Positions 38,029 to 44,605 of a stretch of DNA of 64,000 nt are shown piece after piece. The stretch covers positions 62,001-126,000 of the forward strand of contig NZ_WTCR01000012.1 of NCBI RefSeq assembly GCF_009795715.1. The letters are read 5' to 3'. The DNA is from Labilibaculum euxinicum. GTDB taxonomy: Bacteria > Bacteroidota > Bacteroidia > Bacteroidales > Marinifilaceae. The notes beneath the pieces are model-generated. The model had not been told where the DNA came from and ran no database searches. It saw only the letters and a list, made by a program, of their open reading frames with translations. Within the stretch, counting starts at the first letter, position 1, and each line of letters begins with the position of its first letter. The position numbers and the translations under genes were made by a program.

Positions 38029-38059
38029 ATAACCAAAGAAATCATATAATTAGTAGGTG

Positions 38060-39556
38060 ATGAAGAAGTATATTTTGTCCTTGGATCAAGGAACCTCAGT
38101 GTCGAAAGCAATAATATTTAATAAGGATGGAGAAATTGTTTCTTTGGTTCAAAAAGAATATGAACAATACTATCCTAAGCCCGGTTGGATTGAACAGGAT
38201 GCCAAGGAGATTTGGTATTCTCAGGCATCAGTTGCAGAAGAAGTTTTGGAAAAAGCGGGACTGACCGGAGCAGATATTGCAGGTATAGGTATTACGAATC
38301 AAAGGGAAACTACTATTATTTGGGATAAGGAAACTGGTCAGCCTATTTACAATGCTATTGTTTGGCAGGATAAACGTACTTCTCATATTTGTGATGAATT
38401 GAAGAAACGAGGTTACGCTTCCTTGATAAAAGCAAAGACGGGTTTAATTCTTGATGCTTTCTTTTCCGCAACAAAAATAAAATGGCTTCTTGATAATGTT
38501 GAAGGAGCAAGAGAAAAAGCAGAAAGAGGTGAGCTGGCTTTTGGTACCGTAGATAGTTGGTTAATATGGAAGCTTACCAAGGGAGAAAAGCATGTTACAG
38601 ACGTGTCTAACGCAAGTCGTACAATGCTTTATAATATTCATGAATTGGAATGGGATCAGGAGATATTGGATATCATGAACATTCCCGCTTCACTGCTGCC
38701 AAAAGTATGCTCATCAAGTGAAGTGTACGGAAGTACAAAAAGATCGATGTTTGGGACTGATATACCAATCTCAGGAATTTGTGGGGATCAGCAGGCAGCT
38801 TTGTTTGGGCAGGTTTGTTTCGAGAAGGGAATGGTGAAAAACACTTACAATACGGGTTGTTTTATTTTAATGAATACTGGAGATCAGCCGGTTGAATCAA
38901 AAAACGACCTAATTACAACAATTGCCTGGAGTATTGGAGATAAGGTTACTTATGCACTTGAAGGGAGTGTATTTATTGGTGGTGCGGTGGTTCAGTGGCT
39001 CCGCGATGGTTTGGGTTTAATTCACTCCACCGAGGAAATTGAAATTCTTGCTCTTACCGAAAAGGATAATGGCGGGGTGTATATTGTACCTGCTTTTACT
39101 GGATTAGGAGCACCTTATTGGGATCAATACGCCAGAGGAACATTTTGGGGATTGAATATGGGAACTAGTATTGGTCATATTGCCCGGGCTTCATTAGAAT
39201 CGATTGCTCACAGATCATCAGATGTATTGAAAGCAATGGAAGCAGACTCGGGGATGAAATTTAAACAACTTAGAGCAGGAGGGACTATGGTGAATAATAC
39301 CTTACTTCAATATCAGGCTGATTTTTATGATATTCCTGTGGTTCAATCTAGAATTAAGGAGATTGCAGCATTGGGAGCAGCCTATTTGGCAGGATTGGGG
39401 GTTGGCTTCTGGAAAGATACAGATGAAATAAGAGAACATTGGAAGATAGCAAAGGAATTTAATGTTTTAATGGAAAAGGAAACTGTAGCGCACCATAAAA
39501 AATATTGGGACAAGGCAGTAAGTCGTTCCTTAAACTGGATTGATTCTGATGAATAA
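38060..39556 (+). CDS. Diverged glycerol kinase paralogue (GlpK1)
   Basis: A 498-residue FGGY kinase, overall very like the canonical GlpK2 at 42256. It retains NQRETT, GDQQAALFGQ and PAFTGLGAPYWDQYARG. Several conserved sites differ: the nucleotide loop DQGTTSSR reads DQGTSVSK; the glycerol-contact PYFSGTK area reads [15 protein letters not shown] reads NTYNTGCF; and RVDGGA reads RAGGTM. These may change substrate, lower activity or make it a regulator. The ATG at 38060 was preferred over GTG one codon earlier. It follows padR after 31 bases, likely in one transcript. No frame damage is seen, so it is not a pseudogene. Confidence 0.85.
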   Translation: MKKYILSLDQGTSVSKAIIFNKDGEIVSLVQKEYEQYYPKPGWIEQDAKEIWYSQASVAEEVLEKAGLTGADIAGIGITNQRETTIIWDKETGQPIYNAIVWQDKRTSHICDELKKRGYASLIKAKTGLILDAFFSATKIKWLLDNVEGAREKAERGELAFGTVDSWLIWKLTKGEKHVTDVSNASRTMLYNIHELEWDQEILDIMNIPASLLPKVCSSSEVYGSTKRSMFGTDIPISGICGDQQAALFGQVCFEKGMVKNTYNTGCFILMNTGDQPVESKNDLITTIAWSIGDKVTYALEGSVFIGGAVVQWLRDGLGLIHSTEEIEILALTEKDNGGVYIVPAFTGLGAPYWDQYARGTFWGLNMGTSIGHIARASLESIAHRSSDVLKAMEADSGMKFKQLRAGGTMVNNTLLQYQADFYDIPVVQSRIKEIAALGAAYLAGLGVGFWKDTDEIREHWKIAKEFNVLMEKETVAHHKKYWDKAVSRSLNWIDSDE

Positions 39557-39925: not shown

Positions 39926-40072
39926 ATGGAAGATCAGAGATTTAATTTGGAAGTAGGCGATCGCCTTTACGACTTTTTCCTCGACATTTTGGTGCTGCAA
40001 AAAAACAACTGTGTTCGTGATGAGGAAAATGTTTATGGAAGTATTTGGGAGTTTTGGGAAAAAGAACTTTAG
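39926..40072 (+). CDS. Small ORF of 48 residues ahead of glpD
   Basis: An ATG-started frame of 48 codons, 38 bases before glpD. The peptide (start MEDQRFNLEVGDRLYDFF, end WEFWEKEL) is acidic and aromatic with no signal peptide. It has the composition of a real small protein, and it lies between the promoter and glpD, so it should be in the same mRNA. I recognise no family. It could be a small regulator or a translated leader. Confidence 0.5.
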   Translation: MEDQRFNLEVGDRLYDFFLDILVLQKNNCVRDEENVYGSIWEFWEKEL

Positions 40073-40109: not shown

Positions 40110-41672
40110 ATGGAAAGAGATAGGATGATTAGGGAAATTGAAAAATTGGATCAAAAGTGGGATGTTATCATTGTAGGTGGTGGTGCTTCAGGTTTAGGTG
40201 CAGCTATTGAATCTGCAACAAGAGGATATAAAACCTTGCTTTTGGAACAAGATGATTTTGCTAAAGGAACATCGAGCAGGAGTACCAAGTTGGTACACGG
40301 AGGAGTTCGTTACCTGGCACAAGGAAATATTTCTCTTGTATTGGAAGCGCTTCGGGAGAGAGGTTTAATGAAACAAAATGCTCCTCACCTTGTGAAAGAT
40401 CAATCATTCATTATTCCTAATTATACTTGGTGGGGAACTCCTTACTACACATTAGGACTTACCATGTATGATTTAATGGCTGGGAAATTAAGTTATGGTC
40501 GTTCTTTACCTTTTTCAAAAAAGCGTACGTTAAAATACATTCCAACCTTACAAGAGAAAAATCTTTGCGGTGGTGTTGTTTATCACGATGGTCAATTCGA
40601 TGATGCTCGATTAGCGGTTAACTTGTGTCAAACATTTGTAGAAAATGGTGGCGTTGCTGTAAACTACATGAAGGTAGATGGATTAAAGAAATCCAATGGG
40701 AAAGTAGATGCTGTATTGGTAACAGATATGGAAAGCGGTTCCAAATACACCTTGGAAGCGAAGGTTATTCTAAATGCTACAGGTGTATTTGTTGATGAAA
40801 TCATCAAGATGGATGAACCTAAAGCAAGAGATATAGTAAAAGTTAGTCAGGGGGTTCATTTGGTGTTGGATAAGGAGTTTGTGCCTGGTGATCATGCTAT
40901 TATGATTCCAAAAACATCCGACGGACGTGTGCTTTTCGCAGTGCCTTGGCATGGTAAGGTTGTAGTTGGTACAACTGACGTACAAAAGGATTCTGCAGAA
41001 TTGGAACCAAGAGCTTTGGAAGAAGAGATTAATTTTATTTTAGAAACAGCAGGAAGATTCTTAACAAAACCGCCAAAAAGATCTGATGTAAGAAGTGTGT
41101 TTGCAGGCTTAAGACCTTTAGCGGCACCAAGTGGTGAGGGGAAGAAAACCAAAGAGATTTCGAGAGGACACAAAATTGTAGTTTCAAAATCAGGAATGGT
41201 TACAATTACCGGAGGTAAATGGACTACCTACCGCCAAATGGCAGAGGATGTTATTGATACTGTAGCAAAAACAGGTAAGCTGGCGGAAAAGAAATCGATT
41301 ACCCGAAATTTGAAAATACATGGCTATAAGAATGGTGTTGATTTGAAAAACCCAATGTCTTTCTATGGTTCTGATGAGGAAAAAATCTTAAATCTTGCAA
41401 AAAAAGAAACCGGACTAGATCAATATTTAAGTGAGAAATTGCAGGTGATTAATGCTCAGGTAGTTTGGGGAGCAAGACACGAGATGGCCAGAACGGTTGA
41501 AGATATATTATCCCGTAGAACAAGATGTTTGCTTTTGGATGCAAAAGAAAGTGTTTTGATGGCTCCTAAAGTTGCTGAATTGTTGGCCAAAGAATTAGGA
41601 TATGATAAACTGTGGGAAGAAAATCAGATTAAAGAATATAGTGAGTTAGCATCTCGATATATATTACAATAA
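40110..41672 (+). CDS. glpD: Glycerol-3-phosphate dehydrogenase (FAD-dependent)
   Basis: A 520-residue membrane-associated flavoenzyme that oxidises glycerol 3-phosphate to dihydroxyacetone phosphate and passes electrons to quinone. The FAD fold is WDVIIVGGGASGLGAAIES, followed by TSSRSTKLVHGGVRYLAQG, a family hallmark. The catalytic area holds TTDVQKDSAELEP and FAGLRPLAAPSG. The C-terminal helical domain (about 390-520) is present. Its position between two glycerol kinases and GlpF fits. A candidate structured RNA begins 14 bases past its stop. Confidence 0.95.
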   Translation: MERDRMIREIEKLDQKWDVIIVGGGASGLGAAIESATRGYKTLLLEQDDFAKGTSSRSTKLVHGGVRYLAQGNISLVLEALRERGLMKQNAPHLVKDQSFIIPNYTWWGTPYYTLGLTMYDLMAGKLSYGRSLPFSKKRTLKYIPTLQEKNLCGGVVYHDGQFDDARLAVNLCQTFVENGGVAVNYMKVDGLKKSNGKVDAVLVTDMESGSKYTLEAKVILNATGVFVDEIIKMDEPKARDIVKVSQGVHLVLDKEFVPGDHAIMIPKTSDGRVLFAVPWHGKVVVGTTDVQKDSAELEPRALEEEINFILETAGRFLTKPPKRSDVRSVFAGLRPLAAPSGEGKKTKEISRGHKIVVSKSGMVTITGGKWTTYRQMAEDVIDTVAKTGKLAEKKSITRNLKIHGYKNGVDLKNPMSFYGSDEEKILNLAKKETGLDQYLSEKLQVINAQVVWGARHEMARTVEDILSRRTRCLLLDAKESVLMAPKVAELLAKELGYDKLWEENQIKEYSELASRYILQ

Positions 41673-41685
41673 TTAGTAATTGAGG

Positions 41686-41810
41686 AAGTGGATTTGCGGT
41701 GAGAAGTTAGCAGTACTTCGGAAATTAAAAAGGTACTGCTGTAATTGTTAAGTATAATAATATTAATCAGTTAGTTTTTGGCACAAAATTAACTCAGAGT
41801 AAATCCACTT
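41686..41810. ncRNA. Candidate three-way-junction structured RNA
   Basis: Three nested stems are readable. P1 pairs 41686-41697 with 41799-41810 (12 bp, one G-U). P2 pairs 41708-41718 with 41731-41741 (11 bp, three G-U). P3 pairs 41769-41778 with 41785-41794 (10 bp, one G-U, loop TGGCAC). P2 and P3 sit side by side within P1, forming a closed three-way junction. A separate 13-bp hairpin follows. It lies in the glpD-glpK2 gap and has no long ORF. I know no matching riboswitch or RNA family; it could be a leader element for glpK2 or a 3' element of glpD. Strand is uncertain, plus is more likely. Confidence 0.5.
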
Positions 41811-41823
41811 ACATTTTACACTA

Positions 41824-41858
41824 GGAAGAAAGGTGATTATTTTTGTCACCTTTCTTCC
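41824..41858 (+). repeat. 13-bp perfect hairpin without T-run
   Basis: GGAAGAAAGGTGA and TCACCTTTCTTCC pair perfectly over 13 bp with a nine-base loop. No U-tract follows, so it is not a standard terminator. It stands just after the structured-RNA candidate. Confidence 0.6.
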
Positions 41859-41976
41859 ATCCTCTAAAAAGAAAAACTTGCAGAGCTGTTGATATGTTGA
41901 AAAAGGGAAGTTTTAAGTGGGATTTTTTTTACAATGTTGCTGCAATCGATTACAGAAATTGAAATTTACGGATAAA

Positions 41977-42229: not shown

Positions 42230-42255
42230 CACAATAACCCAAAATTAGAATTAAT

Positions 42256-43755
42256 ATGAAAGACAAGTTTATTTTAGCACTTGACCAAGGAACTACAAGT
42301 TCTCGTGCTATCGTTTTCAACAAGAAAGGCGAGATGATTAGTACTGCGCAAAAAGAATTTACACAAATTTTCCCTCAGCCAGGATGGGTGGAGCATGATG
42401 CAAATGAAATTTGGTTTACTCAGGCAGGTGTAGCAGCAGAAGCAATTACTCATGCAGGTGTTGATGGTAAAAGTATTGCCAGTATTGGTATTACCAACCA
42501 GAGAGAGACAACTGTCGTTTGGGATCGTGAAACCAGTGAGCCAATTTATAACGCAATTGTTTGGCAGGATAGAAGAACTTCAAAATATTGTGATGAATTA
42601 AGATCTGCCGGACATGCTGAGATGATTCAGGATAAAACAGGATTGATTATTGATTCGTATTTCTCAGGAACGAAAGTGAAATGGATTCTTGACAATGTTG
42701 AAGGTGCCCGTGAGAAAGCAGAAGCTGGTAAGTTGGCATTCGGTACTATTGATAGCTGGTTGATCTGGAAATTAACAAAAGGCAAAGTTCATGTAACCGA
42801 TGTAAGTAATGCAAGTAGAACCCTGTTATATAATATTAACACTCTTAAGTGGGATACTGAAATGTTAGAGCTGTTAAATATCCCTGGAAGTATGTTGCCG
42901 GAAGTTAAGTCTTCTTCTGAAATTTACGGATATACAACTTCTACATTATTTGCGCATAAAGTACCTATCGCAGGTATCGCTGGTGACCAGCAGGCTGCAA
43001 CTTTCGGTCAAATGTGTATAGAGCCGGGTTCTGTTAAGAATACTTATGGTACAGGTTGTTTCATGCTTTGTAATACAGGAAATAAGCCGGTAAAATCTAA
43101 AAATAACTTGCTTACCACTATTGGATGGAAAATTAATGGTGAAACTACTTACTGTCTGGAAGGAAGTATTTTCATGGGAGGTGCAATTGTACAGTGGTTA
43201 CGCGATGGATTAGGTATTATTAAATCATCTGCAGACGTTGAAGCATTGGCTACTTCAGTAAAAGATAATGGAGGTGTATTTATGGTTCCTGCTCTTACAG
43301 GTTTAGGAGCTCCACATTGGGATCAGTATGCCAGAGGAACAATTGTAGGTCTTACAAGAGGTTCAACCGCTGCTCACATTGCAAGAGCTGCTTTGGAAGG
43401 AATCGCTTTCCAGGTAATGGATGTTTTGAAGTCCATGGAAGCTGATGCTGGAATCGAAATTAGAGAACTGCGTGTGGATGGAGGTGCTGCAATTAACAAC
43501 TTATTAATGCAATTCCAGTCGGATGTACTTGATGCACCGGTTTATCGTCCTAAGACTCTTGAAACAACTGCTTTGGGGGCAGCTTACTTAGCTGGTTTAG
43601 CAGTAGGATATTGGGATGGTATAGATGATATTAAAAATCAATGGCAGATGGATCAGAAATTCGAACCTACAATGGCTAAAGACGAATCTAAAAGACTTAT
43701 TTCCGGTTGGAATAAAGCTTTAGGACGTTCTAAGAATTGGGATATCGAAGAGTAA
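42256..43755 (+). CDS. glpK: Glycerol kinase (canonical, GlpK2)
   Basis: A 499-residue FGGY kinase that phosphorylates glycerol to glycerol 3-phosphate in the cytoplasm. The canonical residues are present: DQGTTSSR (10-17), NQRETT, SYFSGTK, catalytic Asp in [18 protein letters not shown], and [10 protein letters not shown]. Its length equals the E. coli enzyme. It follows the structured gap after glpD and precedes glpF. The closely related GlpK1 at 38060 differs at these same motifs, so this copy is the likely working kinase. Confidence 0.95.
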
Positions 43756-43870: not shown

Positions 43871-44605
43871 ATGAATGAATTTATTGCAGAATTTTTAGGA
43901 ACAATGCTGCTAATTTTACTAGGTAATGGTGTGGTAGCGAATGTGGTATTGAATAAAACAAAAGGAAATAACAGTGGTTGGATAGTTATCACTTTAGGTT
44001 GGGGATTAGCGGTATTTACTGGAGTTGCAGTTGCAGGTCCTGTTTCAGGAGCACATCTTAACCCTGCTGTTACTATTGGCCTTGCAGTTGCAGGTATGTT
44101 TGCATGGTCGAAGGTTGGTTTTTTTATTGCAGCACAAATGCTGGGTGCGGCTATGGGAGCATTTTTGGTTTGGTTAATGTACCGCGATTACTTTAATGCT
44201 ACAGAAGATGGTGGAGCGAAATTAGCTTGTTTCTCTACGGGTCCAGCTATCAGAAACCTTACCAGCAATGCAATTAGCGAAATAATAGGAACGTTTGTAT
44301 TGGTATTCGTAATCTTTTATTTAGCAGGTCCATCCTTGCAAGCTTCAGGAATAGAAGGTGCTAAAATTGGATTAGGAACTTTAGGTGCTTTACCTGTTGC
44401 CCTATTGGTTGTTGCTATAGGTCTTTCACTTGGTGGAACTACTGGATATGCAATTAATCCGGCAAGAGATTTAGGTCCAAGAATTATGCACGCAATTCTT
44501 CCAATGGATAATAAAGGAACAAGTGATTGGGGATATTCTTTGATCCCAATTGTAGCACCAGTATTAGGAGCTGTAATTGCTGCAGTACTTTTCATGTCTT
44601 TATAA
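43871..44605 (+). CDS. glpF: Glycerol facilitator (MIP family)
   Basis: A 244-residue channel of six membrane helices and two half-helices that lets glycerol cross the inner membrane. The two motifs are GAHLNPAVTIG (about residues 64-74) and AINPARDLGPR (about 197-207). Asp after the second NPAR is typical of aquaglyceroporins rather than water-only aquaporins. Its position in the glp locus agrees. A 12-bp hairpin lies between it and the next gene. Confidence 0.94.
   Translation: MNEFIAEFLGTMLLILLGNGVVANVVLNKTKGNNSGWIVITLGWGLAVFTGVAVAGPVSGAHLNPAVTIGLAVAGMFAWSKVGFFIAAQMLGAAMGAFLVWLMYRDYFNATEDGGAKLACFSTGPAIRNLTSNAISEIIGTFVLVFVIFYLAGPSLQASGIEGAKIGLGTLGALPVALLVVAIGLSLGGTTGYAINPARDLGPRIMHAILPMDNKGTSDWGYSLIPIVAPVLGAVIAAVLFMSL

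Follow-up and report, generated by a model that had tools for sequence, protein, structure and literature searches.

The glycerol locus of Labilibaculum euxinicum (Bacteroidota; Bacteroidales; Marinifilaceae) raises the question of what occupies the space between glpD, encoding glycerol-3-phosphate dehydrogenase, and the glycerol kinase gene that follows it on the same strand. The glpD stop codon ends at position 41672 of the window, that is, of the whole 64,000-nucleotide stretch of contig NZ_WTCR01000012.1 that was analysed, and glpK2 starts at 42256; the 583 bases between them hold no open reading frame of at least 60 amino acids, in agreement with an initial annotation of this DNA, made from the letters alone, which had seen no convincing gene there. 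The names of glpK1, glpK2, glpD and the MIP channel are taken from NCBIfam matches; glpK2 (TIGR01311) and the channel (TIGR00861) exceed their cut-offs, and the best match of glpD (NF008899, E = 9.6e-85, 284.9 bits) falls short of the curated cut-off of 360. On either side of glpD lies a glycerol kinase gene (38057-39556 and 42256-43755), and directly 5' of glpD there is a 48-codon open reading frame (39926-40072) with no Pfam match at E <= 0.01. The features that the argument needs are the following.

40110-41672, + strand: glpD, glycerol-3-phosphate dehydrogenase (best NCBIfam match NF008899; the same neighbour in 16 of 16 genomes)
41684-41817, + strand: the conserved RNA element in full (extent given by covariance model R2; homologues lie 3' of glpD)
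41686-41703, + strand: 5' arm of the closing stem P1 (comparative pairing evidence)
41709-41740, + strand: hairpin P2, 41709-41717 pairing with 41732-41740 (fold and alignment)
41743-41784, + strand: conserved core, AATTGTTA ... TAATCA ... GTTAGTTTTTGGCAC (32 of 42 positions identical to G038, another genus)
41769-41794, + strand: P3, the third stem of the initial annotation, 41769-41778 pairing with 41785-41794, loop UGGCAC (lineage-specific)
41793-41810, + strand: 3' arm of P1 (comparative pairing evidence)
41824-41858, + strand: separate 13-bp hairpin (covaries within Labilibaculum and its sister genus)
41906-41930, + strand: weak AU-rich terminator-like hairpin with T-run at 41923-41930 (predicted, -1.8 kcal/mol)
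41941-41954, no strand assigned: TGCAATCGATTACA, near-palindromic operator-like site directly behind the T-run and before glpK2
42231-42243, + strand: ACAATAACCCAAA, conserved motif in the glpK2 leader (16 of 16 RNA-bearing genomes)
42256-43755, + strand: glpK2, glycerol kinase (TIGR01311, 745.8 bits)
43871-44605, + strand: MIP-family channel, probable glycerol facilitator (TIGR00861, 175.4 bits)

The stretch behind glpD folds far more stably than expected from its composition. The RNA of 41660-41900 reaches -67.9 kcal/mol against -44.2 +/- 4.3 for shuffled sequences (z = -5.5, with 0 of 200 shuffles as low), its minus strand folds less strongly (z = -3.9), and the presumed 3' UTR as a whole, 41673-41931, has a z of -4.9, again with 0 of 200 shuffles as low. 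The nested stems and the separate 13-bp hairpin lie where the initial annotation had placed them. Its positions for the stems hold as well, but P1, which begins 13 nt 3' of the glpD stop codon, is longer than was described: with its inner part (TGAG/CTCA) it comprises 18 positions, of which one or two are mismatched in each sequence. The core that it encloses is 42 nt long and ends in GGCAC. In the window, GAGG at 41682-41685 can further pair with CCTC at 41861-41864, enclosing both the P1 domain and the 13-bp hairpin; by eye, this outer pairing is kept only in part in relatives.

Relatives of the element were sought with two covariance models, R1 and its second-generation successor R2, and with the core sequence itself. 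Matches to glpD at E <= 1e-60 occur in 33 of 56 genomes of the family. The 16 in which glpD has an identity of 82% or more to that of the window all have the core TTTTGGCAC 100-113 nt behind the glpD stop codon, on the same strand. These RNA-bearing genomes span five genera, and in each of them glpD lies 5' and glpK 3' of the RNA. The core is absent behind the 14 other glpD loci examined (54-75% identical), the examination having covered the 30 of 37 glpD matches for which there was a locus. G005, the sole genome of the genus in which the RNA is missing, has a completeness of 63% and no glpD match either. With R1, 16 of the 56 genomes gave a match at E <= 1, and 15 of these lie behind glpD; the remaining one, in G018 (E = 0.81), has no core by eye. 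R2 was run on 52 of the 56 and finds the element in 15 (E from 4e-25 to 2.5e-17), among them G039, which is outside both training sets though close to training members. The element itself scores 143.8 bits, the next match within the window having an E-value of 0.33, and it is single-copy in its own genome, where the next of 18 matches has an E-value of 0.07. Across the order, with eight candidates scored per genome, R1 recovers the element in its own genome only (393 genomes), and R2 (384 genomes) in its own genome and at L102, a match inside a protein-coding gene that was taken as false. A core pattern with a gap of N{2,8}, which covers only the form of the other genera (the Labilibaculum gap being 1 nt), has no match in 393 genomes and, in a second set, matches in 2 of 395, neither with an R2 match. 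The exact Labilibaculum core occurs in six stretches of a contig collection, all titled Labilibaculum or Marinifilaceae. Within the order genomes scored at eight candidates each, nothing credible lies outside the family.

Conservation is spread unevenly over the element. Between the window and G038, the P1 arms are identical at 8 of 21 and 9 of 22 positions and P2 at 16 of 33; the core agrees at 32 of 42, or at 35 of 39 in a slightly longer hand-gapped stretch, and the four-fold sites of glpD at 58 of 156. Judged by this comparison, the core is conserved far above the four-fold sites of the neighbouring gene, and P1 is largely rewritten between genera yet still pairs. Duplexes formed by the two P1 arms of one genome range from -22.5 to -30.1 kcal/mol across 16 genomes, whereas 5' arms of the other genera joined to 3' arms of Labilibaculum or its sister genus give only -9.2 to -17.1 kcal/mol. 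Crossing in the reverse direction gives -10.5 to -24.6 kcal/mol, and several Labilibaculum 5' arms reach -18 to -25 kcal/mol with the 3' arms of genus g11; arm crossing is a mixed control for P1. When the P1 3' arm was shuffled, 0 of 2000 shuffles paired as well in G002, G040, G034 and G038, 3 of 2000 in the window and 40 of 2000 in G049.

In a sequence-only MAFFT alignment (A7; 13 rows, 12 of them distinct, with one deep split), the outer and inner parts of P1 and P2 are paired in 95% of cells. The covariation score of A7 is 0.564, against 0.287 +/- 0.032 in shuffled alignments (0 of 500 as high) and at most 0.115 when the pairing partner is slid, a comparison biased in favour of the element since the pair counts used an RNAalifold structure derived from the same alignment. 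Changes on both sides are seen in 8 of 15 pairs, a weak measure that 26 of 500 shuffles equal, and the number of further pair types is unremarkable (86 of 500); these are the two weak ones among five measures. An R-scape-style G-statistic applied to single pairs finds none significant among the 12 distinct rows, and for its helix sums over P1 the null is higher in 30 of 30 simulations for either part; so few rows with a single deep split give this statistic little power. A test based on compensated cells in stacks, which was devised after the G-statistic had given nothing significant, identifies P1 outer as the most compensated 5-bp stack of A7, with 14 cells. In 60 simulated alignments in which the substitutions were re-dealt over columns along the tree, the best stack had a mean of 1.85 and a maximum of 13 cells, and none reached P1 outer.

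Within Labilibaculum and the sister genus taken alone, covariation is modest: 4 of 35 pairs have changed on both sides, a number equalled by 112 of 500 shuffles, and three pairs (10/137, 18/129 and 19/128) are broken in 3, 4 and 8 of the nine distinct rows, respectively. The 13-bp hairpin has both-sided changes in 4 of its 13 pairs with 96.9% of cells paired, and 0 of 500 shuffles reach its score. The case for covariation rests on this score together with the stack test and the A7 score. Compensatory changes are present in P1, P2 and the 13-bp hairpin, single pairs falling short of significance. The third stem behaves differently: P3 forms in all six of the cores tested from Labilibaculum and the sister genus and in 0 of 3 from other genera, whose cores fold into a different, imperfect hairpin. 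On these cores, the three-way junction as originally drawn is lineage-specific, whereas P1, P2 and the core sequence are general, and the conserved feature is the primary sequence of the core rather than P3.

This pattern bears on three explanations in which the element would not act as a regulatory RNA. The first is a passive 3' end, in which P1, P2 and the further hairpins would shield the glpD mRNA from exonucleases and insulate it from glpK, with no partner involved. The strong hairpins at the 3' end are in keeping with such a role, as is the presence in G010 and G013 (genus g2) of other hairpins behind glpD with, by eye, no core, but shielding leaves unexplained why a 42-nt core stays alike while the letters of the stems change; we hold it unlikely, though to be reckoned with. 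The second is a short coding sequence. Translated, the frame that runs through the core gives YNNINQLVFGTKL in Labilibaculum and YNIINQFVSFGTKL or the like elsewhere. All 16 genomes keep it open over the core, the core part is alike in all of them, and some of the differences between genera are third-position or 3-nt changes; against this, the open stretch varies in length from 31 to 76 codons, the compensation in P1 is left unexplained, and no ATG, GTG or TTG stands before FGT within the open stretch of any of the 16 genomes, for which reason a peptide through the core was set aside as very improbable. In the window, the start-less open frame extends over 41729-41821 (KGTAVIVKYNNINQLVFGTKL...). 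The third, and the least probable of all, is an element acting as DNA, either a sigma-54-like promoter (TTGGCAC) or protein sites in an inverted repeat. TGGCAC does resemble the -24 box of sigma-54 promoters, but by eye the cores that were folded have no GC at the -12 spacing and the TGCC of G038 comes one base too early, so that such a promoter was rejected on spacing; moreover, P1 keeps pairing after changes of letters on both sides.

If the element acts as an RNA, its place in the transcripts becomes the central issue. As glpD lies upstream and glpK downstream in every genome, position cannot tell a 3' RNA from a leader. The initial annotation had described the 13-bp hairpin as lacking a T-run; none follows it directly, but one is found 64 nt later, at 41923-41930, behind the weak AU-rich hairpin, and it is presumed to mark the 3' end of the glpD transcript. 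The sequence GCAATCGNTTAC lies between the RNA and glpK in 16 of 16 genomes, and in 15 of them a run of at least five T's ends 9-11 nt before it, G040 being the one without. In the ten Labilibaculum and sister-genus genomes, 101-115 nt separate the RNA from the start of the T-run. Six of them (the genome under study, G008, G001, G049, G050 and G004) have a weak hairpin directly next to the T-run, with energies of -4.8 to -5.5 kcal/mol in the five relatives, and local folding finds no abutting hairpin in G003, G006, G007 and G002. G035, G036, G038 and G039 have a self-contained hairpin before the T's, and a scan of the window for consensus terminators found none.

Directly after the T-run comes the near-palindrome TGCAATCGATTACA, which we take to resemble an operator of the LacI type; its pattern has one exact match in the whole window, and the corresponding site reads TTGCAATCGTTTACAA in other genera and GCAAACGTTTTCA in G010 and G013. 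The succession of T-run and operator-like site before glpK makes it simplest to assign the RNA to the 3' end of the glpD mRNA, and a separate promoter for glpK probably lies behind the palindrome. The motif ACAATAACCCAAA looks like a second regulatory site; it is not evident by eye in G010 and G013, both of which lack the RNA.

The same stretch is where an intercistronic cis-regulator would have to operate. On this model, P1, P2 and the core would form an aptamer with glycerol 3-phosphate, glycerol or a protein as its ligand, and this aptamer would control read-through from glpD past the T-run into glpK2 and the channel gene. Riboswitch aptamers have a closing helix of free sequence around a conserved core, and the element shares this design as well as a position upstream of genes of one pathway: glpK is 3' of the RNA in all 16 genomes, with a T-run in between in 15. 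Unlike such aptamers, it has no match in Rfam, an operator-like site precedes the gene, which suggests a separate glpK promoter, and no expression platform sharing the strands of P1 was found in ten genomes. These ten, from Labilibaculum and its sister genus, are those that the strand-swap test took in, and in them 52 to 177 of 200 shuffles pair with the P1 3' arm as well as the stretch before the T-run does. In the window, the P1 3' arm could instead pair with AAGTGGGATTT, just ahead of the T-run, a match that had been striking by eye and proved no better than shuffles. Furthermore, each of G035, G036, G038 and G039 has a self-contained terminator hairpin, and between 178 and 484 nt separate the core from the start of glpK in 13 genomes. 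We regard read-through control as unlikely, albeit the foremost of the alternatives. A new class of RNA sensing glycerol or glycerol 3-phosphate, which would affect both the upstream glpD message and the read-through into glpK downstream, seems to us doubtful.

Pairing between the core and the glpK leader fares no better: in 13 genomes (all but G003, G007 and G035), 26 to 244 of 300 dinucleotide shuffles are as good, and a match of UUAGUUUUUGG in the core with CCCAAAAUUAG in the leader, promising by eye, did not exceed shuffles. The proposal that the structure is a glycerol-responsive leader of glpK2 is disfavoured by all of this, that is, by the operator-like site in between (16 of 16), the T-run (15 of 16), the variable distance and the failure to find either a strand swap or a leader pairing. 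The alternative that the initial annotation had offered, a stable 3' RNA, is the better fit.

We favour a conserved structured RNA in the 3' UTR of glpD, likely a 3'-derived regulatory RNA; with action through its core included, this reading has a probability of roughly 45%. Sequence comparison shows the structure, the helix-level covariation, the conservation and the constant position behind glpD, and from these we infer joint transcription with glpD, an end at the T-run, processing and contacts. Transcription of glpD would continue through the P1-P2-core domain and at least one lineage-specific hairpin and stop at the T-run, just 5' of the operator and promoter of glpK. The folded tail would then act either while attached to the glpD mRNA or after being cut free, with P1 and P2 exposing the AU-rich core (AAUUGUUA...UAAUCA...GUUAGUUUU-GGCAC) for contact with a partner. 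Other mRNAs or an RNA-binding protein are the most likely candidates, and the contact might tie the use of glycerol 3-phosphate to other genes. The full Bacteroidetes promoter pattern (TTTG, 17-23 nt, TAnnTTTG) has no match near the RNA, which is compatible with co-transcription with glpD. An end at the T-run is less comfortably accommodated where its hairpin is weak or absent, as in several genomes, or where there is no T-run, as in G040. A profile search of the genome at E <= 0.001 found no Hfq or RRM_1 protein (the controls matched elsewhere), and thus no known RNA chaperone of such systems.

The promoter pattern also weighs on the idea of a separate small RNA gene, transcribed from a promoter of its own close to the 3' end of glpD. 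The element is compact and has a terminal T-run in 15 of 16 genomes, as such a gene might, but next to it there is only a lone TAnnTTTG at 41838, inside the 13-bp hairpin, and matches resembling sigma-70 promoters number 5 against 4.4 in shuffles, which is no excess; a gene of its own is quite improbable.

Control of glycerol genes by RNA has a precedent in the glpD leader of Bacillus subtilis, which is under antitermination by GlpP; that element is upstream of glpD and the present one downstream. To our knowledge, few regulatory RNAs have been described in the phylum Bacteroidetes. In Bacteroides thetaiotaomicron, UTR-derived sRNA candidates are known, among which a 3' class is defined by a start or processing site together with a terminator or processing site in common with the mRNA (PMC7366714). 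Like 3'-UTR-derived sRNAs, the element lies on the same strand behind a metabolic open reading frame, near a presumed terminator, and has an AU-rich conserved stretch; it differs in being more structured, with a long closing helix, and in belonging to a genome in which no Hfq or RRM_1 protein was found.

The view that this is a structured RNA of no known family is upheld by the fold, the covariation and a search of Rfam 15, in which three tRNAs are the only features of the window to reach the gathering score. Below that score there are six matches to unrelated families, the best being mir-627 with 23.7 of 86 bits. In the open-licence full-text literature, no paper was recognised as dealing with this RNA. 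Bacteroidales-1, Bacteroides-1, Flavo-1 and 6S-flavo, tabulated in PMC2864571, are likewise narrowly distributed structured RNAs of the same phylum, and the element matches none of them at the gathering score. It looks like a new, uncatalogued family of structured RNA that has no match in Rfam 15, is supported by comparison at the level of helices, and is narrow in distribution and confined to a single locus. The element stands at a metabolic branch point, between glpD, whose product consumes glycerol 3-phosphate, and glpK2, whose product makes it; should the core make contact with a metabolite, a protein or target mRNAs, the element would exemplify RNA control in a bacterium with no detected Hfq or RRM_1 protein. 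Two isolated species, L. manganireducens and L. filiforme, carry the RNA, which makes direct testing possible.

Two further observations concern the history of the locus. In G010 and G013, each of which has two adjacent copies of glpD, long hairpins (L071, L072) lie behind glpD where, by eye, the core is absent, and these are possibly an analogous or a replaced element. G050 and its sister G049 have the same RNA, but behind it the sequence of G050 is similar to that of G004, and the next glpK differs (L028 as compared with L027 and L014), which suggests recombination between the RNA and glpK in that genome.
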